A DNA stretch of 64,000 nucleotides from Bradyrhizobium sp. CIAT3101 (GTDB lineage: Bacteria > Pseudomonadota > Alphaproteobacteria > Rhizobiales > Xanthobacteraceae), in the NCBI RefSeq assembly GCF_029714945.1, contig NZ_CP121634.1, forward strand, positions 4,981,001 through 5,045,000. The letters are read 5' to 3'. Below the pieces are notes generated by a model. The model did no database searches. It was not told the origin of the DNA and worked only from the letters and a program-made list of their open reading frames with translations. The position numbers and the translations under genes were made by a program. The first letter of the stretch is position 1. The number at the start of each line of letters is the position of its first letter. This document shows positions 29,660-53,493 of this stretch, piece after piece.

Positions 29660-30073
29660 ATGCCGCGTATTCTCGTGGTCGATGACGATCCGATGGTCGG
29701 CGCGACCATCGAGGTCCTCCTCCTGCGCCAGGGCTTCGACGTCACGCTCACCGACGGCGGCGAAACGGGGCTTGCTGCGCTGGAAGCGCAGACGTTTGAT
29801 GTGATGCTGGTTGATATCTTCATGCCGCATATGCGCGGCTTCGAATCGATCCGCATCTTTCACGAGCGTGCGCCGGCGATTCCGTTGATCGCCATGTCGG
29901 GCTACGCCTTCGCCTCATCCGCCTCGCCCTCCCCGGACTTCCTCCGCATGGCGCTCGAACTCGGCGCATCGCGCTGCCTGCGCAAGCCGTTCACGCCCGA
30001 GACGCTGTTGACGACCATCCGGGAATGCCTTGGCGAGAGCGCGCCGCCGAAGGACCAGAAAGAAGCACCTTGA
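29660..30073 (+). CDS. Single-domain response regulator
   Basis: This 137-residue receiver domain has acidic pocket residues Asp8-Asp9-Asp10, phospho-acceptor Asp52 in MLVDIFMP and the switch lysine Lys109 in LRKPF. There is no output domain. GGAAGGG lies just before the ATG. Its TGA stop overlaps the likely TTG start of the hybrid kinase (TTGA), so the two are translationally coupled. It is likely a CheY-like phosphate relay or sink for that kinase. Confidence 0.9.
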   Translation: MPRILVVDDDPMVGATIEVLLLRQGFDVTLTDGGETGLAALEAQTFDVMLVDIFMPHMRGFESIRIFHERAPAIPLIAMSGYAFASSASPSPDFLRMALELGASRCLRKPFTPETLLTTIRECLGESAPPKDQKEAP

Positions 30074-32328
30074 TCCCTTCGCAGCGCGTCATTCTCGGTG
30101 CTGGACTTGCCATCCTCCTGCTCATCACCGCCGCCTCGATCGGGCTCGACGTCAAGTCGCGGTCGGACGCTGCGTGGGTCAATCACACCGCCGAGGTGCT
30201 GAAGAAGATCTCCGACGTGCACCTGCTGGTTCGCCGCGCGGAAAGCGCGCTACGCGGCTATGAGATCTACCGCACGGCAGGCTTCATCGACGAATTCCAG
30301 GCTGCCCGCGGCCAGATCGCACCGGCGCTCGGCGACCTCAAGCTCGCGATCCGCGACAATGCCGACCAGGTGGCGCTGATGGAGGCTACGGAGCCACTCA
30401 TCCTTCGGCGCATCGAGGTCGCAGCCGAGTCGCTTCGGCTGCGCACCAATGGCGACATTGAGGGCTCCAACGCGCTGAGAGACCGCGGCGAAGGACGCGG
30501 CCTGATGGAGACGCTCACGGGAAATCTGGATCGGCTGGCCGCGAGCGAAGAGAAGCTACGCGCCACTCGCGAAGCGGCCTCGCGCCGGACCGGCATCGTG
30601 CTGCTCGGCATCGACGTCATTGGCGCGCTGGTGATCCTGCTGCTCGTCACCATCCTCTTGCGCGAGAGCCGGCGTACCACCGTGCAGCTCCAGAGCTCAC
30701 TGCTGGAAACCACCGCGGCCAATCAGCAACTCGAGGCCGCCGTGGCGGAGCGCACCGAGCACCTCGTCACCGCCCATGACGAGCTGCGCCTGTCGGTCAA
30801 CGTGCTGCAGAGCACGTTCCGCAGCATGGCCGAGGCCGTGCTGGTGATCGACACCGAGGGCAACGTCCTTTTGTCCAATCCGGCCGCGGAGCACATACTG
30901 CTGCACCGCACCGGCACGAACCTGCGCAATCTGCGCGCGCTATCCGATGTGTTCCACGGCGACGGCGTCACGCCGCTCGAGTCCGACGGACTGCCGTCCG
31001 TGCGCGTGCTGCGCGGCGACGCGTTCGAAAATCTGGAGATGATCGTCCGCCCGCACAGCGGCAACAACGCGCGCCATCTGATGGTCAGCGGCCGGCCGAT
31101 GCGGGACGGACAGGGCAACATCTCCGGCGCCGTGCTGGTCTATCACGATGCGACCTCCTCGCGCGAAACCGAGCGGCAGCTACACCAGTCGCAAAAGCTC
31201 GACTCGATCGGCAAGCTGACCGGCGGCGTCGCGCACGACTTCAACAACATGCTGACCGTGATCTCGGGCAATACCGAGACGCTGGTGGCGAGCCTGAAGG
31301 AGCAGCCCGAGCTGCAGCGCACCGCGCGCCTGATCGACGACGCCGCCGAGCGCTGCGCCGAGCTGATCCAGCATCTGCTGGCCTTCGCGCGAAAACAGCC
31401 GTTGCAGCCGCGCGACGTCGAGATCAACGCCGCCATCACCGACATCGCAAAGCTGCTGCGTCCCACCCTCGGCGAGCAGATCCAGATCGAGACCGTGCTG
31501 GAACAGGGACCGATGACCTCGCACATCGATCCGTCGCGCCTGACCAATGCCGTGCTCAACATGGCGATCAACGCCCGCGACGCCATGCCGAACGGCGGCA
31601 AGCTCCTGCTCGAGACCCACCGCGTCGTGCTGGACGAGGCTTACGCGCAGGCCAACGCCGACGTGCGGCCCGGCCCCTACGTCATGCTCGCCGTCAGCGA
31701 TACCGGCACGGGCATGCCGCAGAGCGTGCAGGACATGGCGTTCGAGCCGTTCTTCACCACCAAGGAGGTCGGCAAGGGATCGGGCCTCGGGCTCTCCATG
31801 GTCTACGGCTTCGTCAAGCAGTCCGGCGGCCACATCAAGATCTACAGCGAGCAAGGTCACGGCACCACGATCAAGCTCTATCTGCCGCCCGGCGAAGGCA
31901 CGACGGAAGCGGCCGCAGCAATCGCCCCGCAGGCCGAAGGCGGCGCCGAGACCATCTTTGTGGTCGAGGACGACGTGCTGGTGCGCAACTTCGTTACTGC
32001 GCAGCTGCAGAGCCTCGGCTACAGGACGGTGGCCGCCGGCGACAGCCGCGCCGCGCTGCAACTGATCGAGGCCGGCCAGGCCTTCGATCTGCTCTTCACC
32101 GACGTCGTCATCCCCGGCGGCATGAGCGGCCGCGAGCTCGCCGACGAAGTGGCGAAACGACGCCCGGGCGTCAAAGTGCTCTACACCTCCGGCTACACCG
32201 ACAACGCTATCGTCCACCACGGCAAGCTCGACGACGGCGTGATGCTGCTGACCAAGCCGTACCGGAGAAACCAGCTCGCCGAGATGATCAGGAAGGCATT
32301 GAGTGGTGGCGGGATGGCGGCGAGCTAG
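30070..32328 (+). CDS. Hybrid sensor histidine kinase: CHASE3-PAS-HisKA-HATPase-REC
   Basis: This 752-residue membrane kinase (from the TTG at 30070; an ATG at 30025 would add 15 residues) has TM1 at about 7-27, a periplasmic CHASE3 domain (about 35-175, with VRRAESALRGYEI), TM2 at about 178-200 and a coil. A PAS domain lies at about 250-370, then HisKA with His389 in GGVAHDFNNMLTVISG. HATPase follows (NMAINARDAMPNGG, DTGTGMP, GSGLGLSMVYGF), and a C-terminal receiver with Asp678 in LLFTDVVIPGGMSG. The architecture suggests an internal relay. The last ~20 codons and stop recur as fragments at 33.0 and 36.2 kb. The signal is unknown. Confidence 0.9.
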   Translation: MIPSQRVILGAGLAILLLITAASIGLDVKSRSDAAWVNHTAEVLKKISDVHLLVRRAESALRGYEIYRTAGFIDEFQAARGQIAPALGDLKLAIRDNADQVALMEATEPLILRRIEVAAESLRLRTNGDIEGSNALRDRGEGRGLMETLTGNLDRLAASEEKLRATREAASRRTGIVLLGIDVIGALVILLLVTILLRESRRTTVQLQSSLLETTAANQQLEAAVAERTEHLVTAHDELRLSVNVLQSTFRSMAEAVLVIDTEGNVLLSNPAAEHILLHRTGTNLRNLRALSDVFHGDGVTPLESDGLPSVRVLRGDAFENLEMIVRPHSGNNARHLMVSGRPMRDGQGNISGAVLVYHDATSSRETERQLHQSQKLDSIGKLTGGVAHDFNNMLTVISGNTETLVASLKEQPELQRTARLIDDAAERCAELIQHLLAFARKQPLQPRDVEINAAITDIAKLLRPTLGEQIQIETVLEQGPMTSHIDPSRLTNAVLNMAINARDAMPNGGKLLLETHRVVLDEAYAQANADVRPGPYVMLAVSDTGTGMPQSVQDMAFEPFFTTKEVGKGSGLGLSMVYGFVKQSGGHIKIYSEQGHGTTIKLYLPPGEGTTEAAAAIAPQAEGGAETIFVVEDDVLVRNFVTAQLQSLGYRTVAAGDSRAALQLIEAGQAFDLLFTDVVIPGGMSGRELADEVAKRRPGVKVLYTSGYTDNAIVHHGKLDDGVMLLTKPYRRNQLAEMIRKALSGGGMAAS

Positions 32329-32337
32329 CGCGTCGCC
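32272..32337 (+). repeat. Kinase 3'-end repeat, master copy
   Basis: This stretch covers the codons for QLAEMIRKALSGGGMAAS, the stop and CGCGTCGCC. It is the intact source of similar pieces at 32994-33055 and 36236-36293. The AGCGCGTCGCCAA at its end (32327-32339) is repeated at 32792-32804. Confidence 0.8.
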
Positions 32338-32351
32338 AACGGGAGGATTGC

Positions 32352-32786
32352 TTGAAGAGAGCTGCTGCTTATCTCAGGCGAAACAAGATCATCATCTGCC
32401 CTGTCTCGGAGACCACGGACGGAGTGGGCATGACCTGCACACCGGTCTTCAATCTGGAGGCGAGCGATGTCGTGGGCGCAGGCAAGGCACTACTGGACGC
32501 GTTGCAGTATTCGCGCGAGGGGATTCCACACCCTTCACGAGCGGAATGGGGCAATTTGTTTGAGCCTATTCTAAGCGCCGCCGGGGTGGGATCTTGGAGT
32601 TCATTTGTGCGATCCGCAAAGGAAGTTGCCGTTAAATTTGGGACCAACCGTGTTGTTTACATTCCCACCAGAAACCTTGGTTCAAGGAATGGCTTCGTTG
32701 CTCTCCCGGAACGGGAGCGATCGAGTGCTCCGACGGTTGCAGAAGTTGGGCCTGCGCTTCTAGCTGCGTTCGCTGACGCTGAATAG
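32352..32786 (+). CDS. Orphan contact-dependent inhibition immunity-like protein
   Basis: This 144-residue protein starts at a TTG with GGGAGG six bases upstream. The pattern TTDGVGMTCTPVFNLE, REGIPHPSRAEW, ILSAAGVGSWSSFVRSAKEVAV and YIPTRNLGSRNGFVALPE resembles a family of small proteins annotated as CdiI-type immunity proteins in proteobacteria; I recall this likeness without being able to search. No CdiA, CdiB or toxin tip is adjacent. Base composition is visibly lower in GC than its neighbours, and 13-bp direct repeats (32327-32339, 32792-32804) bracket the gene, both suggesting recent insertion. Confidence 0.5.
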   Translation: MKRAAAYLRRNKIIICPVSETTDGVGMTCTPVFNLEASDVVGAGKALLDALQYSREGIPHPSRAEWGNLFEPILSAAGVGSWSSFVRSAKEVAVKFGTNRVVYIPTRNLGSRNGFVALPERERSSAPTVAEVGPALLAAFADAE

Positions 32787-32789
32787 CGA

Positions 32790-32993
32790 TCAGCGCGTCG
32801 CCAATAGCACCGCGGCGAGCGTAAAGATCAGCCCGGCGATCTGCCCTGCCCCGAGCGGCTCGTGCAGCGCGAGTTCCGACGCGACCACGCCAATCACTGA
32901 CACCGCGATCGTCCTGATCGCGGCGACCGAGGCAGGCAGGCGGGCGGGCGGGCGAGCGCTGCGAACAAGCTGACGTAGGCGATACAAAACTGC
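32790..32993 (-). pseudogene. 3'-terminal fragment of an EamA/DMT transporter gene
   Basis: Read leftward, this encodes LPASVAAIRTIAVSVIGVVA and then ALHEPLGAGQIAGLIFTLAA before a stop. This is nearly the same as the end of the intact transporter at 39005-39901. The DNA match runs over about 200 bp (32790-32993 against 39005-39200). It has no start region, so it is a remnant. Its right end joins directly to a copy of the kinase 3' end, and a short GGCGGGCGG slippage run (about 32935-32955) disrupts one part. Confidence 0.85.
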
Positions 32994-33055
32994 CAGCTCG
33001 CCGAAATGATCCGGAAGGCGTTGAACGGCGGGGGGATGGCGGCCGGCTAGCGCGT
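32994..33055 (+). repeat. Kinase 3'-end repeat, second copy
   Basis: This copy encodes QLAEMIRKALNGGGMAAG plus a TAG and CGCGT, about 85% like the intact kinase end at 32272-32337. It begins exactly where the transporter fragment stops. Confidence 0.8.
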
Positions 33056-33431
33056 GGACTGCCCGGAGGCGCGCAGCAGTTACGCAAATGTGGGACCGCG
33101 CGCACTAGCGCAGGATGCGAGTTCCGCTTGTCTTGTTGAGCCGCCGTGGCTCGCCCGGATCCGCGCCGGAGGTGTTCCGAAACCGCGCAATGCAACGAGT
33201 AAGGCCGTTTTGATTCCGATCGGGCCGGTCTCAAGCAAAAATCAAGCGCATCTCAAGGACAAATCGTCTCACCACCCCCATCTCCGAGCATGCTCCCGGC
33301 GACAAATGTTGGAGCCGGCGTCGCGACAGTCCGCTTGCGGAGCGCGATACCGATCGCAGTCACCAGATGCACACAGCTAGGATCCTGGTCTGCGGCCGGA
33401 ACTGACGGCGCAGCTTTCCACAGGTGCTCGG
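33056..33431. other. Intergenic region with no supported gene
   Basis: About 375 bp between the second kinase-tail copy and the substrate-binding protein gene. Open frames here look like shadows with unusual amino-acid content. I see no clear hairpin or tRNA. The promoter of the downstream two-gene operon is presumably near the right end. Confidence 0.4.
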
Positions 33432-34403
33432 ATGAAAAGACGCGAGTTCATCTCGTTGATTGGTGGAGGACTGGTCTGGCCCGCGATCGCACGGGCGCAG
33501 GACGGAGCCAAGCTGCATCGCATCTTCTGGGTCTCGACCGAGTCCGAACCGGATCCCTTCCTGGACGGCTTTCGCGATGGAATGCGCGCGCTGGGATACG
33601 TCGAGGGCAAGACCGTAACCTTCGAGACGCACTATGCCCCTGGAAATCCGCAGGCACTGCGCAAGATCGTCTCCGATTTGCAGCGGAAGGATATCGACCT
33701 AGTGGTCTCGAGCGGTCCGGCGACACGCGTCATGACTGGGGTCACCGACGTGCCCGTGCTGTTTGCGTTGAGCGGTGACCCCGTCGCTTTGGGTGTGGTG
33801 AAGAGCCTTGCTCACCCCGGCACCAATTTCACCGGCAGCACATTCCTGTCGCTCGAGCTGGCAGGAAAGCGCATTGAGCTGCTCAAGGACATTTATCCAA
33901 AGCTGCGAAAACTGGCGGTCTTCTCGAACACGGATCATCCGGGAGAGCCACTGGAATGGCGTGCGACTTTGGAGTCGTGCCGGAATCTCGGCATCGAGGC
34001 AGCCTACGTTCCGTTCTGTGGCGCTCGCGAAATCGAGAATGGGTTGACCGCTGCCGGAAACGTGGACGCGGATGCTCTCCTCGTGTTTCCCGATGTTGTG
34101 ACGCTGGTGCATCGTGCGAAGATTGCGGAGCTTGCAATCGCGCGCCGGCTGCCTTCGATGTTTGGCTGGTCTGAATATTGTGACGCTGGAGGTCTCCTGA
34201 GTTACGGCGCAAACCAGCGCACGACCTACTTTCGGCTTGCCACGTATGCCGATCGCATCCTGCGCGGTGAAAATCCGTCAGATCTTCCGGTGATGCGCCC
34301 CGAGAAGTTCGAACTGGCAGTCAATCTGAAGACAGCCAGGCTTCTGGGCATCGACCTGGACGTGTCGTCGATCCTGTTTCGGGCCAGCAAGGTGATCTCC
34401 TGA
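33432..34403 (+). CDS. ABC transporter substrate-binding protein (TrpX-like, PF04392 type)
   Basis: This 323-residue exported protein starts with MKRREFISLIGGG and a hydrophobic core, cleaved after IARA-QD (about residue 23). RRxF makes a twin-arginine route possible. The periplasmic binding fold has the usual pieces of the ABC_sub_bind group: FLDGFRDGMRALGYVEGKTVTFETHYAPG near the N-terminus, DLVVSSGPATRVM, and IARRLPSMFGWSEYCDAGGLLSYGA. These are typical of orphan binding proteins abundant in Bradyrhizobium. No permease or ATPase gene is adjacent. The gene ends 8 bp before the adenylate cyclase, so it may feed ligand information to that enzyme rather than to a transporter. Confidence 0.85.
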   Translation: MKRREFISLIGGGLVWPAIARAQDGAKLHRIFWVSTESEPDPFLDGFRDGMRALGYVEGKTVTFETHYAPGNPQALRKIVSDLQRKDIDLVVSSGPATRVMTGVTDVPVLFALSGDPVALGVVKSLAHPGTNFTGSTFLSLELAGKRIELLKDIYPKLRKLAVFSNTDHPGEPLEWRATLESCRNLGIEAAYVPFCGAREIENGLTAAGNVDADALLVFPDVVTLVHRAKIAELAIARRLPSMFGWSEYCDAGGLLSYGANQRTTYFRLATYADRILRGENPSDLPVMRPEKFELAVNLKTARLLGIDLDVSSILFRASKVIS

Positions 34404-34411
34404 GAGCATTG

Positions 34412-36211
34412 ATGACCGACGGTGCTGCGCAGTCCTCTTCGTGTACGATGCCCCCGCGTCGCTCGCTGTTCTGCAAGTATTTCGCGACGTTGTTTGTCGC
34501 TGCCGTCGTGCCTTTGATACTGGGCGCGGCCGTCGAGGCGTCGTTCGGTTACCGAGACCAGCGCCGCCAGATCAGCGCGGTGCTGCACGCCGATGCTCGC
34601 GCGGCGTCCGACAGGATCGAGGCGTTCACCGACGGCATACGGGATCAACTGGGTTGGATGGTGCAGCTTCCCTGGTCTGCCGGGGACGATGCGCAACATA
34701 AGATCGACGCCTTGCGCCTTCTCCAGCAGGTGCCTGCAATCGTTTCGGTTTCGCTTCTGGATGAGGCCGGCACTGAACGGATTTTTGTTTCCAGGCTGCA
34801 TCTGAACAGGACCGGGCGCGGCATTGATATGTCCGCTGATCCCGCTGCTCTCGGCGCACGCGCCAACAAGGTCTGGTACGGACCGGTTCAGTACCAGCGG
34901 GATTCAGAGCCCTATATGAGGATCGCGGTTGCCGGGAGCCTGCCGGCTGCGGGGGTCGTGATCGCCGAAGTCAATCTGAAGCTGATCTGGGATGTCATCG
35001 CCGCCATTCGAATTGGCGAGACCGGCTACGCCATTGTTGTCGATGACTCCGGTCATCTGATCGCCCATCCCGACATCAGTCTGGTTCTGCGCGGCCGCGC
35101 CAGCTCGGGCAGTTTCGGCCGGATCAAGCATCTCGTTGGCGCGTCGAGCGGAGCCGCGGTGATAACCGGGGACCAAGGCAAGCCGGTGGTGGCGCTGTCC
35201 GTTCTAGCCGCCGATGTGGGATGGACGGTGATCGCGATGCAGCCGGTCTCGGAAGCTTTTGCATCAATTCACGCGGCGTTGTGGCGCTCGTCAATTCTGA
35301 TTGCCTTTGGTGTTCTTGTCGCGCTGGCGCTCGCCTATTGGCGCGCGCACAGAATGTCCGGCCCGATCAAGCAACTGGAAGAGGGCGTGGAGCGGATCAG
35401 AACCGGACAATTCGAGCATCGCATCAGGATCTTCAGCGGTGACGAGTTGCAGCAACTGGCGCTGCGCTTCAATGAAATGGCTTCTGAACTGGCGATCTCG
35501 CAACAGAAATCTGCGCGGATCGAACGGCTGAAGCAGTTCCTGCCATCGCAGGTCGCCGAATTGGTCGAGCATTCTCACGAACTGCTCGAAGGACAGCGAC
35601 GTGAAGTCGCCGTCATTTTTGGCGACTTGCGCGGCTTCACGGCGTTCTCCACGCGCAATGAACCTGATGTCATCATGGCCGTCATGCGCGAGTACTACGA
35701 GGCCGTTGGTGCCGTGACGACTCGTCACGAGGCAACGCTCATCGGCTTTGATGGGGACGGAGTCATGCTCCTCGTCAATGCCCCGGTCGCATGCGAACAG
35801 CCGGCAACCCAAGCGGTCCGACTCGCGATCGACCTGCAAACGACGGTGCAGTCCCTTGCCGGCAAATGGTGCGACGCCGGCCACGCGATCGGCTTTGGCG
35901 TGGGCGTTGCGATGGGACCGGCAACGGTAGGAACGGTTGGTTATAACGGTCGGCTGGACTACACGGCGATGGGAGCCGTGGTGAATTTGGCGTCGCGGCT
36001 CTGCAATCTCGCGAAGGACGCGCAGATCCTGGCTGATCCCACGATCGCTGAAAGGGTAAGGGATAGCGTTCCGTTGGCATCGCTCGGACAGCGACACATC
36101 AAAGGCTACGACCAGGCCCTCGAAGTCTTTGCCGTCGCACCTGCCGACCTGCCGTTGAAGCCGCCGGGCTCGGGACAACGCCGGCGAGAGAAAGAGCCTC
36201 AGGACCACTGA
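34412..36211 (+). CDS. Membrane adenylate/guanylate cyclase: extracytoplasmic sensor-HAMP-class III cyclase
   Basis: This 599-residue protein has TM1 (about 22-43), a periplasmic dCache-like domain (about 50-285), TM2 (about 290-312), HAMP (about 313-365) and a class III nucleotide cyclase domain (about 385-575). The two metal-binding aspartates are Asp405 (FGDLRGFT) and Asp449 (FDGDGVML). The residue that is normally the adenine-selecting Lys in the K-x-x-G-D motif appears to be Gly here, so nucleotide preference is uncertain. It probably makes cAMP in response to a periplasmic signal. It is in an operon with the binding protein 8 bp upstream, which could present the ligand. Confidence 0.87.
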   Translation: MTDGAAQSSSCTMPPRRSLFCKYFATLFVAAVVPLILGAAVEASFGYRDQRRQISAVLHADARAASDRIEAFTDGIRDQLGWMVQLPWSAGDDAQHKIDALRLLQQVPAIVSVSLLDEAGTERIFVSRLHLNRTGRGIDMSADPAALGARANKVWYGPVQYQRDSEPYMRIAVAGSLPAAGVVIAEVNLKLIWDVIAAIRIGETGYAIVVDDSGHLIAHPDISLVLRGRASSGSFGRIKHLVGASSGAAVITGDQGKPVVALSVLAADVGWTVIAMQPVSEAFASIHAALWRSSILIAFGVLVALALAYWRAHRMSGPIKQLEEGVERIRTGQFEHRIRIFSGDELQQLALRFNEMASELAISQQKSARIERLKQFLPSQVAELVEHSHELLEGQRREVAVIFGDLRGFTAFSTRNEPDVIMAVMREYYEAVGAVTTRHEATLIGFDGDGVMLLVNAPVACEQPATQAVRLAIDLQTTVQSLAGKWCDAGHAIGFGVGVAMGPATVGTVGYNGRLDYTAMGAVVNLASRLCNLAKDAQILADPTIAERVRDSVPLASLGQRHIKGYDQALEVFAVAPADLPLKPPGSGQRRREKEPQDH

Positions 36212-36235
36212 TACCCCGGCGTCCGGACGGCTAGC

Positions 36236-36293
36236 GCGAAATGATCCGGAAGGCGTTGAACGTCGGCGGGATGGCGGCGGGCTGACGCGTCGC
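36236..36293 (+). repeat. Kinase 3'-end repeat, third copy
   Basis: This stretch encodes EMIRKALNVGGMAAG with a TGA and then CGCGTCGC. It is closer to the second copy (GAAATGATCCGGAAGGCGTT shared) than to the intact kinase. It lies 24 bp after the cyclase stop. Confidence 0.8.
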
Positions 36294-36309
36294 TGATCGA
36301 GGTCATTTG

Positions 36310-36621
36310 CTATCGTGATGCGTTGGCGTCCGCTGAGGAGGCCTTGGTTGGCGCGACTGTCTGACGCCCGCGAGCGGCGATCAGTGCGGCCTTGATGCGT
36401 TGCTGCTCGGCGACGTCCATGAGCGGCGCCTTGCGCGCCGGCGGCAAATCGTGGACTGCAAGATAACCGCTCTTGTCGGTCGCTTTTCCGCCCTCGGCGA
36501 GGGAGGCCTGTGCATCGAGCGGATTGCGTAGGCCAGCGGCGCCACCCGGGGTCGTCGCGCAACCTCCAAGCCCCAATCCGATGACGACCGGCAGCACAAC
36601 AAACCGCATGACACCGCGCAT
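36310..36621 (-). CDS. Small lipoprotein of unknown function
   Basis: This 103-residue protein starts with a short basic N-terminus, a hydrophobic stretch and the lipobox LGLGGC-ATTP, so it should be lipidated at that cysteine (about residue 21) and anchored in an envelope membrane. The mature part is polar with no motif I recognise (ATDKSGYLAVHDLPPARKAPLM, AEQQRIKAALIAARGRQ). The latter look is common in Bradyrhizobium small lipoproteins. Start choice is between ATGs at 36619-36621 and 36607-36609; neither has a strong SD. It lies 171 bp downstream of the larger unknown gene on the same strand. Confidence 0.65.
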   Translation of the reverse strand: MRGVMRFVVLPVVIGLGLGGCATTPGGAAGLRNPLDAQASLAEGGKATDKSGYLAVHDLPPARKAPLMDVAEQQRIKAALIAARGRQTVAPTKASSADANASR

Positions 36622-36792
36622 GCCAAGCGCGGCCGGCAGACGACCGGCCTGCCCCCGTACCAAGGTGCAGTTGCCGGTCGCAGGTCGAGAGTAGCTACGC
36701 AACAACATGGCTCTGTCGAGTTGAAATGGGCGACTGGCGCGATCGCGAGCCGGGCGTCTGAGGCAGATCACCCGGCTCGGCAATAATTCTGG

Positions 36793-38001
36793 TCACCAAA
36801 CCGCATCGAGGATGTTGGACAGGGCCTGCCGGCCTCCGCTCAGCACCGCTCCAGGTGCATCCATCACGCGCTCCAGAACCCCGGGCCTGGCATAAGACAG
36901 CCTATCCTGTCGCTTGGTCGCGTTGGCCGGCTCGGCGACGGCAACATTCGGAGCTGGCGCCGGGCCGTAGATCACCGGCGGGGGTCCGCCCCAGGAAGGG
37001 GTCACGTCAGCCGCACTCGATCTCCAATTCCGATAGTCGACGTCGCCCCGTAGCTGGCCGAGCAATTTGGGCTTCTCGGCCGGCGCCGTGGAAGCGAGGC
37101 GCACCAACCTCTGGCGCCCGGCGGATTCGACCTTGGCCTTAGCTTCCTTTTTCTGTTCAGCCGGGATGCCCGCGACCTTCGCCGGCGCCCGGTTGGTATC
37201 GATGTCGCGGTTCGAGCTCTCACGTGCCGGCTCCGCAGATGCCTTCTCGGCCTTCGGCTCCGTCGTCGTCGTCAGGATATCGCGCGCTTCCGAGACACCA
37301 GTCTCGGGTTCGGCCGCACGCGTGCTGGGCGGGGACGTGGCTTCGTCGACCGGCTCATTGCGTTCCGCGGATATGGCTGCCGCACGCGGCTGCGCGGTGG
37401 AATCTGCTTCGGCTCCATCGGCTGGATCACGGCGAATGTCCTGACTGACCGCTGCCACATCGGGGCTGGATGCCGCCGGCTCTCCGCGCGACATGGACAA
37501 ACCGCCGACGATCGCAAGCAGGAGCAATGCGTCCAGGAAACGAAAACGAGACCTGCGAAACCTCGGCATCTCAAAGGCGAGCCTGCGCGGAACGTACCTG
37601 AAGGCCGGCACGCGCGCACGCGGCCCGGCTGCGGCCGGTCGAACGAGCGAACGGCTCGCGTTCTCCTGCACCACAGGCATGTCGAGTTCGGCGTCCGGCG
37701 GCGTGCGAGACGCATCCGGCAAGACAACTTCCGGCACGGTCACTTCCGACATGACCGCGGGAGCAGCGAGCAGCTCGCGCGGCTCAGATCCAGGCTTGGA
37801 TTCAATGGACGCGAGAAGCGCATGCACACGACTGGGATCGCGAAACTCGTCGTCATTCGACACGATGACGCCGCTCCCATCGACCGGACGCTGGTAGCGG
37901 GCGCGTCCTGAGCCAAGGAGGTGCCCGAGCGCCCTGAAGATGGGAAGCCACCAGCGCCGGCCCGGCGCGACCTCTGGGATGACTGACTCCGTATTGTGCA
38001 T
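36793..38001 (-). CDS. Single-pass membrane protein with long disordered region, function unknown
   Basis: This 402-residue protein has a cytoplasmic-type N-terminal part (about 1-150; HNTESVIPEV..., GSGVIVSNDDEFRDPSRVHALL), one basic-flanked TM (about 151-168, FRFLDALLLLAIVGGLS) and a long Ala/Glu/Pro/Lys-rich disordered segment. A C-terminal part with PPPVIYGPAPAPNVAVAEPANATKRQDRLSYARPG ends at about residue 400. The ATG at 37999-38001 has GAGGCGAG upstream and leaves out 15 residues of the open frame. I recognise no domain. The layout resembles bitopic anchoring or tethering proteins. It sits between the OmpR-type regulator and the lipoprotein on the same strand. Confidence 0.65.
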   Translation of the reverse strand: MHNTESVIPEVAPGRRWWLPIFRALGHLLGSGRARYQRPVDGSGVIVSNDDEFRDPSRVHALLASIESKPGSEPRELLAAPAVMSEVTVPEVVLPDASRTPPDAELDMPVVQENASRSLVRPAAAGPRARVPAFRYVPRRLAFEMPRFRRSRFRFLDALLLLAIVGGLSMSRGEPAASSPDVAAVSQDIRRDPADGAEADSTAQPRAAAISAERNEPVDEATSPPSTRAAEPETGVSEARDILTTTTEPKAEKASAEPARESSNRDIDTNRAPAKVAGIPAEQKKEAKAKVESAGRQRLVRLASTAPAEKPKLLGQLRGDVDYRNWRSSAADVTPSWGGPPPVIYGPAPAPNVAVAEPANATKRQDRLSYARPGVLERVMDAPGAVLSGGRQALSNILDAVW

Positions 38002-38164
38002 AATCTCGCCTCGACTGACGCGCTGAGCTGAACGTAACGGCAGCATTTGGGGTCGAAGCTGCGGCGTCTTTTCTGTCGAAATTTGTCCGCGCCGTGGCGG
38101 TATGTGTAGAGATATTAGCGCCCCGCCCTGCGACCTTCCCGCGGCGTAAACAGCCGCTCCAACC

Positions 38165-38911
38165 TCAGGCGGCTGTAACGGTCGGCGTGAAGAGATAGCC
38201 GCCGAGGCGAATGGTCTTGATCAGCGTCGGCTCTCGCACGTTCGGCTCGATCTTCTGACGAACGCGGCTGACGTGAACGTCGATGCTGCGCAGGAATGGC
38301 CCCGCCAAACCGGCGTGCGTCAGCGAAAGGAGTTCTTCGCGCTTCAGCACCCGACCCGGATTGGCGCAGAAGGCAAGCAGGATGTCGAACTCCGCCGTGG
38401 TCATGGGCATCTCGACACTGTCGGGATCGTGAAGCTTGCGCTGCACCGGATCGACCCTCCAGCCTGCGAAGGTCATGCTGGCAGGCTGCCGGGCAACGCG
38501 GTTGGCGTAGGAGGCCCGGCGCAGGAGACTCCTGATGCGCGCCAGAAACTCGCGCGAGCTGAACGGCTTGGTGACGTAGTCATCGGCACCGAGCTCCAGG
38601 CCGACGATGCGATCGACATCGTCGCTGAGTGCCGTCAGCATCATGATTGGAACCGTTCCGGTCGAGCGCAGCCGGCGGCAGATGCTGAAGCCGTCTTCCC
38701 CCGGCAACATCCCGTCCAGGACGATCAGATCGAAGTCGCCGCGCCGCAGGACGTGATCCATCTCCGCGCCAGATCCGACGACGGAGGCAACGAGGTTCGC
38801 CTCGGTGAGCAGCTCGGCCAGCATGCGCGCGATGTCCCGGTCGTCCTCGACGAGGAGGATCCTGGCCGGCACCGAACAGTCGGTGCAATCGGACGCGGTG
38901 GTAGCTTCCAT
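38165..38911 (-). CDS. OmpR/PhoB-family response regulator
   Basis: This 248-residue regulator has a receiver domain (about 16-130) with acidic pocket Glu22-Asp23-Asp24, phospho-acceptor Asp66 in IVLDGMLPG and Lys115 in VTKPFS. A winged-helix DNA-binding domain follows (about 150-245; TTAEFDILLAFCANPGRVLKREELL, SIDVHVSRVRQKIEPN). It would activate or repress genes when phosphorylated by an unlinked kinase; no histidine kinase gene lies next to it. The ATG at 38909-38911 was chosen because the extended frame adds an atypical leader. It lies between the unknown membrane protein and the intact transporter, all on the minus strand. Confidence 0.9.
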   Translation of the reverse strand: MEATTASDCTDCSVPARILLVEDDRDIARMLAELLTEANLVASVVGSGAEMDHVLRRGDFDLIVLDGMLPGEDGFSICRRLRSTGTVPIMMLTALSDDVDRIVGLELGADDYVTKPFSSREFLARIRSLLRRASYANRVARQPASMTFAGWRVDPVQRKLHDPDSVEMPMTTAEFDILLAFCANPGRVLKREELLSLTHAGLAGPFLRSIDVHVSRVRQKIEPNVREPTLIKTIRLGGYLFTPTVTAA

Positions 38912-39004
38912 CGCCCGGCCAATATCAGACTGCGGCTTTAAAAACAAGTCGACCGGTCGGTTTTTATTGCGCCCATTTGCAGCGCTCGCGGCCTCGCAGA
39001 CCAC

Positions 39005-39901
39005 TTACCGCGTCGCCAGCACCACCGCGGCGAGCGTAAAGATCAGCCCGGCGATCTGCCCTGCCCCGAGCGGCTCGTGCAGCGCCAGCGCGGACGCCAC
39101 CACGCCGATGACCGGCACGGCCATCGTCCCGATCGCCGCGACCGAGGCCGGCAACCGTGCCAATGCTGCGAACCAGCTCACATAGGCGATGCAGAACTGC
39201 ACCACGGTCGAATAGACCAGCAGCAGCCAGCCGATTGGTGTCACCTTGTCCAGATGCGTGGTCTCGATCAGGAGGCCGACGATCGAGATCGGCAGGCAGC
39301 CGATCCCGATCTGCCAGGCCGCGGCCGTGATCGGCGGCAGGTGGATCGGGTACTTCTTGGAGAAGACCGTGCCGACGGCAAAGCCGATCGCGCCGCACAG
39401 CGCCATGATGATGCCGGGCGCCTTCTCGGCGCTGGCGGCGATGCCGTTGCCGCCCATGATCGAGGCGAGGCCGGCAAAGGCCATCACCAGCCCGAGCGTG
39501 CGCAGCAAGGTCGGCCGCTCTCCCAGCACGGGCCAGGCAATCAGCGAGGCCCAGACCGGCATGGTGTAGGCGATCAGCGCCGCCTCGCTCGCCGGCAGCC
39601 ACAGCAGCGCCAGCCCCATCAGCACCATCCAGCCGGTGACGTTGAGGGTGGCGGCGGTGACCAGCCGCGGCCAGATCTGGGGCGCGACTTTCAGGCTGTC
39701 GCCGCGAACCAGGGCGAGCGCGGCCAGCAGCACCGCGCCGAGCACGCCGGTGACGCCGCGCAAGGTGAGCGGCGGCAGTTCGCCAAGCAGGAACTTTGTC
39801 ACCGGCCAGTTGAAGCCCCAGCCGATCGAGGTGATCGCGAGGAACATCAGGCCGGCCGGGGCGATGCGCGGTCGCGCATCCCGGCGAGTCGAATCAAGCA
39901 T
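39005..39901 (-). CDS. EamA/DMT-family transporter
   Basis: This 298-residue inner-membrane protein has about ten helices in two EamA repeats (about 15-145 and 158-290). The second repeat ends in SVAAIGTMAVPVIGVVA, then ALHEPLGAGQIAGLIFTLAA, the conserved end of many DMT exporters. The family exports metabolites or amino acids; the substrate is unknown. Its last ~65 codons are duplicated as a pseudogene at 32790-32993. Confidence 0.87.
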   Translation of the reverse strand: MLDSTRRDARPRIAPAGLMFLAITSIGWGFNWPVTKFLLGELPPLTLRGVTGVLGAVLLAALALVRGDSLKVAPQIWPRLVTAATLNVTGWMVLMGLALLWLPASEAALIAYTMPVWASLIAWPVLGERPTLLRTLGLVMAFAGLASIMGGNGIAASAEKAPGIIMALCGAIGFAVGTVFSKKYPIHLPPITAAAWQIGIGCLPISIVGLLIETTHLDKVTPIGWLLLVYSTVVQFCIAYVSWFAALARLPASVAAIGTMAVPVIGVVASALALHEPLGAGQIAGLIFTLAAVVLATR

Positions 39902-44873: not shown

Positions 44874-45192
44874 CAAGACAACTCCTGCACGCCTTGTTCA
44901 GCGCACGCGAAATCTCTCGGTACACCCGCTCATGGTGGACTCGATGATCCAGTTGCAAAGCATGGCCGTGCGATGAAAAACGCCCATAGCGATGACCCAG
45001 TCGTTGCGGAATGCGGAGGCGCCAAGTGCGCAATACCAAGCGTGCGCACGAGGGGCCGTTTGGCCGCAGATAAACAGACAGGACGGCCGCCGTCTGTGGA
45101 CCAATTCACAATTGCGGTACGACTTTTTTTGGGCGCTGTGCGATTTGGCCCAACCGCTGCGGCGGCCAGACATTCGCACAGTCGGCCAGCCC

Positions 45193-45272
45193 GTAGGATG
45201 GGTAGAGCACTTGCGAAACCCATCATTCCACGACGAACATTGATGGGTTTCGCTTCGCTCTATCCATCCTAC
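45193..45272. repeat. 80-bp palindromic element, copy A
   Basis: It begins GTAGGATGGGTAGAGC and ends with the complementary arm ...CCATCCTAC (one T change in the outer arm). The inner 13-bp arms GCGAAACCCATCA / TGATGGGTTTCGC are intact. It lies 20 bp beyond the stop of the coiled-coil gene at 45293. Confidence 0.9.
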
Positions 45273-45292
45273 GAGCTACTACCGCTCCCGCA

Positions 45293-45799: not shown

Positions 45800-46012
45800 G
45801 ATTGACCCTCCCAATACGCACCCCGCACCCCAAACGGCACTCAGTGTATGACGTGGATAAGTGGCATTGCTAACCCAATCTATCGTTGACAGTCTCAACT
45901 TTGCCATTTTTCTCCGCCTGCCAACGCGGCACGCGGGGATGATGGGTGTCACAAGCGTTCAACCACCCGTATTTGCGGTTCGCGAAGATGATGGGAATTG
46001 CGATGACAGCCC

Positions 46013-46092
46013 GTAGGATGGGTAGAGCACTTGCGAAACCCATCATTCCACGACGGACATTGATGGGTTTCGCTTCGCTCTACCCATCCTAC
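46013..46092. repeat. 80-bp palindromic element, copy B
   Basis: Outer arms GTAGGATGGGTAGAGC and GCTCTACCCATCCTAC are perfect complements. The inner 13-bp arms are perfect too. It is nearly identical to copy A and lies 63 bp upstream of the ParB-like gene. Confidence 0.92.
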
Positions 46093-46155
46093 GAGCTAAA
46101 CTCCCAACCTTACCGGCATGGGTTCCGACGGGCCCGGTAGAAGCGGAGTCGAGTT

Positions 46156-48756: not shown

Positions 48757-48759
48757 CGC

Positions 48760-48840
48760 GTAGGATGGGTAGAGCTCTTGCGAAACCCATCATTCCACGA
48801 CGGCACTTGATGGGTTTCGCTTTCGCTCTACCCATCCTAC
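48760..48840. repeat. 81-bp palindromic element, copy C
   Basis: Outer 16-bp arms and inner 13-bp arms are perfect. The short segments joining them (CTCTT / TTTC) do not pair. It directly follows the transglycosylase stop. Confidence 0.92.
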
Positions 48841-48926
48841 GGACAGCCTCCGCGGATACAAAGGTGCGCTGTGCTTATCCACCCTGCACGCCCGCCTACC
48901 TCGCCACGCCTACCACCATCGTCCTG

Positions 48927-49762: not shown

Positions 49763-49804
49763 TAGGGAAAATGCGCCGGTCGGCGAGGCACCAGAACCAG
49801 TGTC

Positions 49805-49870
49805 GCAGGATGGGTAGAGCACGTGCGAAACCCATCAATCACGGCGGCGCTTGATGGGTTTCGCTTTTGC
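49805..49870. repeat. Palindromic element, copy D, truncated
   Basis: It begins GCAGGATGGGTAGAGC and keeps both inner arms (GCGAAACCCATCA, TGATGGGTTTCGC). The right outer arm is missing; it breaks off next to the stop of the SGNH hydrolase gene. Confidence 0.8.
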
Positions 49871-49876
49871 TGTCGG

Positions 49877-50386: not shown

Positions 50387-50525
50387 GGCGCCCTCCAATG
50401 ATTTTTCAAAATAGCGTCGATCGGGGCCGAATGAATGCCCCGACGAGATCAGCAACCCATGTTCGCCAGTCCGCGCGCGTTTGGCAACTCTCCTTCCGGA
50501 TATCCGGCCTTGGAGAGCGTAGCCC

Positions 50526-50605
50526 GTAGGATGGGTAGAGGTCTTGCGAAACCCATCATTCCGCGACGGCTGTTGATGGGTTTTGCTTCGCTCTGCCCAT
50601 CCTAC
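50526..50605. repeat. 80-bp palindromic element, copy E
   Basis: Same organisation as copies A-C with a few changes (GGTCTT centre, TGATGGGTTTTGC inner arm, TCTGCCC outer arm). It lies 19 bp beyond the stop of the desaturase gene. Confidence 0.88.
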
Positions 50606-50623
50606 GGCTTCTACGGGTGCCGA

Positions 50624-52166: not shown

Positions 52167-52253
52167 GCGTTGGTCTCCTTGCCCGGCAAGAGTGCAAAAG
52201 GACGCAAAGCAAGGCAAGCGAATTTCGATCACGACTTGGTAGCGGCGCAGCCC

Positions 52254-52334
52254 GTAGGATGGGTAGAGCGTCAGCGAAACCCATCATTCCACGACGACAC
52301 TTGATGGGTTTCGCTGACGCTCTACCCATCCTAC
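52254..52334. repeat. 81-bp palindromic element, copy F, perfect 33-bp stem
   Basis: Unlike other copies, the whole 33-bp left half (52254-52286) is an exact complement of the right half (52302-52334), around a 15-base loop TTCCACGACGACACT. It is followed 14 bp later by an element of the second family. Confidence 0.95.
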
Positions 52335-52348
52335 GCGGCCACGAAGCC

Positions 52349-53278: not shown

Positions 53279-53361
53279 TGCAGAATCTCCCCCTCAGAAT
53301 AGACGCCTCTATCCCAACGCCAGCTTACGCGAAGCTTATCTAATTCCATGGATCCAGATAC

Positions 53362-53442
53362 GTAGGATGGGTAGAGCCCTTGCGAAACCCATCATCCCAC
53401 AACAGCTATTTGATGGGTTTCGCGTCGCTCTACCCATCCTAC
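53362..53442. repeat. 81-bp palindromic element, copy G
   Basis: Outer 16-bp arms are perfect, and inner arms are GCGAAACCCATCA / TGATGGGTTTCGC. The centre is CCTT / GTC. It ends 51 bp before the PhzF gene start. Confidence 0.92.
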
Positions 53443-53493
53443 GCAGCGAGCCAGGCGCTCGCACCGGTGCCTTGCGGCCAACAGGATCACCTC

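Follow-up and report, generated by a model that had tools for sequence, protein, structure and literature searches.

Organization of the locus

The window analysed here is a stretch of 64,000 nucleotides (nt) from the genome of Bradyrhizobium sp. CIAT3101 (9.37 Mb, one contig), and the subject of this study is a junction in it at which two genes face each other tail to tail. The left flank of this site is a full copy of a gene for a hybrid sensor kinase with the domain order CHASE3-PAS-HisKA-HATPase-receiver (30025 to 32328, + strand). The right flank is a full copy of a gene for an EamA transporter (39005 to 39901, - strand). Three blocks of cargo genes, A, B and C, lie between them, separated by truncated copies of the 3' ends of both flanking genes.

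The kinase's own 3' end, K1 (32265 to 32333, + strand), is followed by two truncated copies on the same strand, K2 (32994 to 33055), which runs into B, and K3 (36237 to 36293), which runs into C. A repeat search placed the kinase tails at 32271-32333, 32993-33055 (86 % identity) and 36228-36290 (71 % in that register), and paired 32794-32945 of the EamA tail with 39009-39160 (87 %), continuing as 32938-32993 with 39145-39200 (77 %). The EamA copy, E' (32790 to 32993, - strand, 204 nt), was also recognized by a profile and by self-BLASTN of the window (200 nt, 82.5 %, E = 9e-52). The latter also returned K1-K2 (63 nt, 86 %, 3e-13), K2-K3 (54 nt, 91 %, 9e-14) and K1-K3 (57 nt, 82 %, 7e-9). In pairwise comparison, K2 and K3 were 0.89 identical, K1 and K2 0.84, and K1 and K3 0.82. 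A 108-nt kinase-tail query had K1, K2 and K3 as its sole matches in its own genome at E ≤ 0.001. All four tails are thus where the original prediction, made from the letters of this DNA, had put them, and it was also right that E' changes into K2 without any spacer (32993/32994). A point absent from it is that 8 nt of an EamA 3' end (E'', CTAGCGCG, 36231 to 36238, - strand) stand in front of K3; the same letters come after block B in other genomes in which B adjoins EamA.

The joins between EamA and kinase tails overlap by 1 nt (E' and K2) and 2 nt (E'' and K3), with no homology beyond a few nucleotides. Direct repeats of the original joint, read from the sequence, flank A (13 nt), B (11 nt) and C (8 nt). 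The 13-nt repeat AGCGCGTCGCCAA is found on the + strand both to the left (32327 to 32339) and to the right (32792 to 32804) of A.

Each interval contains a different block, as had been predicted. Cargo A is a single gene with a TTG start (32352 to 32786, + strand, 144 amino acids). Cargo B consists of genes for an ABC_sub_bind protein (33432 to 34403, + strand) and a dCache-HAMP-adenylate/guanylate cyclase protein (34409 to 36211, + strand), both assigned by Pfam. Of the three genes of C, all on the - strand, Pfam identified the third as an OmpR-family response regulator (38165 to 39004); the names lipoprotein-like for the first (36310 to 36783) and membrane-type protein for the second (36793 to 38046) come from the original prediction and are not backed by a Pfam match in either case, nor, for the second, by one in NCBIfam. 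The simplest reading of this order of parts is a succession of three alleles with one cargo block each, [K1-A-E'][K2-B-E''][K3-C-EamA], every allele lacking only the outer parts of both flanking genes.

Empty and occupied sites in related strains

The site was compared in 80 further loci, the best 80 of 277 relatives found by EamA protein, all labelled Bradyrhizobium or Bradyrhizobiaceae. Open reading frames (ORFs) were called with simple scripts and no gene finder. A hybrid sensor kinase is located beside the site in 75 of the 80 loci; it was not found within the retrieved DNA in L029, L032, L036, L054 and L072. The stop positions of both genes could be located in 76 of the 81 sequences, window included; the gap in L021 is approximate, as its kinase is split into two pieces in different frames (L021:16456-18715, residues 10-631 and 636-762, apparently frameshifted).

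In 29 of these 76 loci, the two stop codons overlap or are separated by no more than 10 nt. In such empty sites, they often overlap in CTAG, followed by CGCGTCGCCAGC. Strains in which the kinase directly adjoins the transporter, for which the original prediction had suggested looking, therefore exist, and the contrary outcome, no empty site anywhere, was not what the relatives showed. A gap of 11-300 nt was found in 15 loci, several with palindromic elements, and 32 loci, that of the window among them, carry 0.5-9.4 kb of varied genes. The spacing on the outer sides is kept, both between the kinase and the regulator upstream of it (0 of 70 deviate) and between EamA and the next ORF upstream (0 of 31).

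Occupancy was mapped on a tree of the neighbouring gene for a B12-dependent ribonucleotide reductase with 79 rows, of which 77 were counted (L032 and L064 are not in the tree and L036 and L072 were not counted; L029 and L054 were scored as occupied, though their kinase may be farther off or lost). The change between occupied and not occupied took 25 steps on this tree, against 25.4 ± 2.1 for shuffled labels, so that occupancy fits the strain tree no more closely than permuted labels would. Block B required 8 changes for 10 carriers and a block with a DoxX gene 6 changes for 6 carriers.

Content of the cargo blocks

Recurrent blocks were defined by an all-against-all comparison of the intervals between kinase and EamA. 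Block B (binding protein and cyclase, approximately 3.17 kb) recurs at the site in 10 rows and the DoxX block in 6, and interval content is common to the pairs L002/L019, L004/L005, L023/L047 and L026/L031. More than one block is present in eight loci (the window, L001, L019, L037, L041, L047, L054 and L066). B is the sole insert between kinase and EamA in L010, L020, L022, L033, L058 and L061, and C with its kinase-side joint is the sole insert in genome G195 (locus label L090). The K2-B and K3-C joints of the window match these single-insert joints. B begins directly after the kinase stop. Its right end in the single-B genomes is ...GGACGG followed by EamA's CTAGCGCGTCGCCAG or a variant, which can also be read as ...CTAGCGCG or a variant followed by EamA. 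In the window and in L001, B ends with ...GGACGGCTAGCGCG, after which K3 starts. In every one of the 45 carrier pairs, B shows a higher similarity than EamA.

A Pfam scan of 60 of the approximately 120 predicted cargo ORFs, taken from 23 loci, assigned 49 proteins to families, among which are hydrolases, transporters, regulators of the LysR, AsnC and AraC types, malonate enzymes, a sulfatase and a caspase-type peptidase. No integrase, transposase, phage or conjugation family was present among these 60 proteins.

The sole homologue of A among 264 other genomes of the genus is in G216 (69 % amino acid identity). It follows a gene for an Rhs protein (TIGR03696, E 6e-21), starting no more than 10 nt from the stop of that gene; the C-terminus of the protein matches the EC869-type CDI nuclease domain (PF21111, E 1.3e-13). 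In the window, A follows the kinase directly, with no toxin gene alongside. Neither A nor its homologue matched a known immunity family in Pfam or NCBIfam. The gene context in G216 makes an orphan Rhs/CDI immunity gene the most likely identity of A, which would then be an example of such a gene parked at a hotspot-like site.

Homologues of the second gene of C were found in 2 of the 264 other genomes. Block C of G195 is about 1.5 kb longer than that of the window at the position of 38047-38164 and contains there a 469-codon open frame resembling a histidine kinase. In the window only 118 nt are left at this position, so that the partner of the OmpR-type regulator may have been lost. Adenylate/guanylate cyclase domains are also encoded by unrelated inserts that two other loci carry at the site (L049:10939-14199 and L063:10915-13845), in one protein fused to an NMT1-type binding domain.

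Comparison with a strain of the same species

L001, probably from genome G198, belongs to the same species as the window strain. It carries B and C without A-E'-K2. The region was therefore not acquired all at once, in agreement with the original prediction. The two strains are approximately 99 % identical to the left of 32265 and to the right of about 33135, with edges read from the alignment. Identity falls sharply inside the kinase at about 32265: the kinase tail is only 0.77-0.78 identical (0.77 for K1 against the tail of L001) and the first 100 nt of B 0.79. The stretch from 32265 to 33135 was probably exchanged as one tract in either the window strain or L001; an attempt to assign the change to one of the two failed. 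This one mosaic tract between two strains of one species is the observation that bears on recombination in the flanking genes.

Three breakpoints, namely the left edge of the mosaic tract, the start of K2 and the start of K3, are located at kinase-equivalent positions of approximately 32265, 32272 and 32280, within 16 nt (32265-32282). Strong conservation just upstream is the only explanation that can be offered for this cluster.

Tails as probable scars of earlier events

The tails nearest to K2, over the 64 nt available for this short comparison, are those of the B carriers L022 (0.92) and L010 (0.91), followed at 0.89 by L051, which has an empty site, and L020, which carries B. Nine loci of a deep clade were excluded from the tail comparisons, which on the EamA side covered 72 tails. 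Two more loci contain additional stretches of EamA tail. In L054, 59 nt of it separate two blocks and come closest to L049 (0.97). L076 has 131 nt of it to the left of its cargo, closest to the sister strain L077 (0.94), and represents a plain form in which the cargo is located between two EamA-tail copies. In the deep-branching loci L068, L070, L073, L074 and L078, a second EamA-tail match of approximately 440 nt was seen about 3.7 kb before the kinase stop; this is perhaps a second EamA gene.

A probable stepwise origin of the array

Taken together, these observations make it probable that the tail-to-tail kinase/EamA junction is a spot of gene exchange in Bradyrhizobium and that the window holds three stacked alleles, added stepwise without recognizable mobility genes. 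The alleles at the site differ between strains: some have no insert, some a short palindromic element, and others one of numerous blocks made up of ordinary genes. Incoming DNA with another allele would pair by homology with one of the flanking genes, while its other end would be sealed by illegitimate joining of an EamA tail to a kinase tail with an overlap of 1-2 nt, so that new cargo is added beside the old cargo instead of replacing it. Such an addition requires that the two tails be joined without homology, which homology-facilitated illegitimate recombination would probably accomplish; NHEJ was also weighed as a way of making this join. The mosaic tract suggests that ordinary homologous recombination in the flanks may then exchange alleles from strain to strain. 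Each flanking gene retains one full copy, and the truncated tails between the blocks would be scars; the window locus would be kinase-A-E', K2-B-E'' and K3-C-EamA joined head to tail. The similarity of B among its carriers is consistent with exchange between strains and is no proof of it because rates differ between genes.

A number of observations weigh against this reading. In a regional control with the same measure, using ORFs picked mechanically by conservation, which means that an additional gene may lie within some pairs, the kinase/EamA junction deviated in 28 of 71 loci and five other joints in none. Two other convergent pairs deviated in 19 of 28 and 12 of 50, one divergent pair in 7 of 56 and one wide co-directional gap in 31 of 41. 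Other nearby junctions thus vary too, some of them more, and the kinase/EamA site is not unique but one of several flexible junctions. B exceeds the reductase gene in similarity in only 33 of the 45 carrier pairs, with 1 tie and 11 pairs in which it is lower; nine of these 11 involve L058. Among the 60 scanned cargo proteins, 11 match no family and 18 come from loci in which no kinase was seen. A was not found alone at the site in any genome, its one homologue in 264 other genomes being in an Rhs context. The tails are short, and the profile recognizes K3 only weakly (E 0.017 for the window copy and 0.05 for that of L001). The tails nearest to K3 come from the empty-site genomes L051 (0.89) and L071 (0.86), and L051 is among the closest to K1, K2 and K3 alike. 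A donor for E' was sought among the 72 tails; the best reached 0.84, and the strain's own EamA ranked seventh with 0.81. The kinase tail of L001 is a poor match to both K1 (0.77) and K2 (0.82), which favours no particular order of events. No tail scar was found in five of the eight multi-block loci (L019, L037, L041, L047 and L066).

According to the original prediction, a tandem duplication of the empty kinase/EamA joint came first in the window lineage, and cargo entered each copy afterwards. The empty site on which this proposal builds is real, the tail copies are in direct order with the right polarity, and K2 and K3 resemble each other more than either resembles K1. Duplication before the entry of cargo nevertheless appears less likely: B and C occur alone elsewhere with matching joints on the kinase side, the 80 loci included no empty one with duplicated tails, and the 8 nt of EamA between B and K3 would be too little if B had entered a ready-made duplicate at the usual joint. 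Concatenation of whole alleles through joins of EamA tail to kinase tail fits better, and the duplication proposal is regarded as doubtful. Slightly more doubtful still is a variant in which the two ends of the donor fragment, an EamA tail and a kinase tail, were ligated into a circle that integrated through a single crossover, or in which insertion was accompanied by a long target duplication. The same order of parts would result, and both ligation circles with a single crossover, described for linear DNA in E. coli (PMC3240628), and the plain form of L076 speak for it, but circles of the size of the surviving parts would leave only 49-62 nt of kinase homology for the crossover.

The short joint repeats around A, B and C could also point to a recombinase whose attachment site is the kinase tail or the CTAGCGCGTCGCC joint. 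Of 22 left ends, 5 have retained four or more nucleotides of the EamA end, against an expectation of 1.3 % per end; the binomial P of approximately 8e-6 is only a guide, since L011, L044 and L069 represent one block, C was read by eye and L058 was dropped as a second B. The repeat is absent from most left ends, other convergent junctions nearby vary as well, and the right ends of single-B inserts pass straight into EamA. The attachment-site model was rejected because these inserts have, by profile, no kinase-tail copy at the EamA side and no recombinase (integrase or transposase) was present among the scanned proteins; it is given very little credence. Hardly more is given to the idea that insertion at this and other tail-to-tail junctions is not passive and that an unrecognized mechanism, which works in trans or needs no known recombinase, might favour overlapping stops (CTAGCGCGTCGCC), leave repeats of 4-13 nt and build cargo arrays allele beside allele. 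That the tails are similar by chance, an outcome the original prediction had itself allowed for, or are unrelated paralogues has a negligible probability: the kinase tail does encode the end of a common receiver domain, but the E-values (7e-9 to 9e-52) and the presence of this tail at only three places in the genome at E ≤ 0.001 led to its rejection.

Relation to known systems

Gene-transfer hotspots, including those without mobility genes, have been described (Oliveira et al. 2017; PMC5635113). The kinase/EamA site resembles them in having variable genes between fixed core genes (kinase and EamA flank the site in 76 of 81 sequences), diverse content with fast turnover (25 changes of occupancy in 77 rows) and no integrase or transposase (60 of about 120 cargo ORFs scanned). 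The likeness is one of features, the comparison with other junctions being a regional one. It differs from the hotspots described there in that the window stacks single-cargo alleles with truncated gene ends as scars.

Stepwise addition beside older cargo, the retention of orphan immunity genes and the shifting back of the 3' ends of earlier genes are features shared with the immunity-gene arrays of the type VI secretion system of Vibrio cholerae, for which homology-facilitated illegitimate recombination was proposed (Kirchberger et al. 2017; PMC5361080). The cargo of V. cholerae belongs to one secretion system, whereas that in Bradyrhizobium is functionally unrelated and located at a convergent gene junction. 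Homology-facilitated illegitimate recombination has also been put forward for variable genome segments in bacteria (PMC2884548) and is a rare event in E. coli conjugation (PMC3240628). One homologous end and one illegitimate join would be common to it and the window; the process has been studied experimentally elsewhere, whereas at the window it is deduced from sequence alone. The L076 insert, flanked by a long direct target duplication, is like insertions with long target duplication in Helicobacter pylori (PMC1643837). Those cases concern restriction-modification genes, whereas in the window tails of EamA and of the kinase alternate and the cargo differs from block to block.

The literature thus already covers hotspots that lack mobility genes as well as homology-facilitated illegitimate recombination and the arrays it builds; new here is this locus, with unusually clear scars. 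A literature search on Bradyrhizobium hotspots and convergent insertions, by titles and abstract openings, returned nothing on it. The entry of cargo into hotspots without mobility genes has so far mostly been inferred from statistics. Since empty, single-cargo and multi-cargo alleles occur in one genus, with scars at some of the joins, individual insertion events can be read and tested at the kinase/EamA locus.

Further observations

An IrrE/M78-like gene (PF06114, E 1e-4; L050:4807-5469, - strand) is located in L050 beside the gene for the B12-dependent ribonucleotide reductase and is fused in frame to a copy of the C-terminal tail of the reductase, which makes this a second locus with a tail copy at an insert. 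The window also contains seven copies of an imperfect palindrome of 83-92 nt, one of them shorter (68 nt), that start with GTAGGATGGGTAGAGC (45187-45278, 46007-46098, 48759-48841, 49804-49871, 50521-50606, 52253-52335 and 53361-53443). L028, L042 and L079 have letters similar to this palindrome in their kinase/EamA joint.

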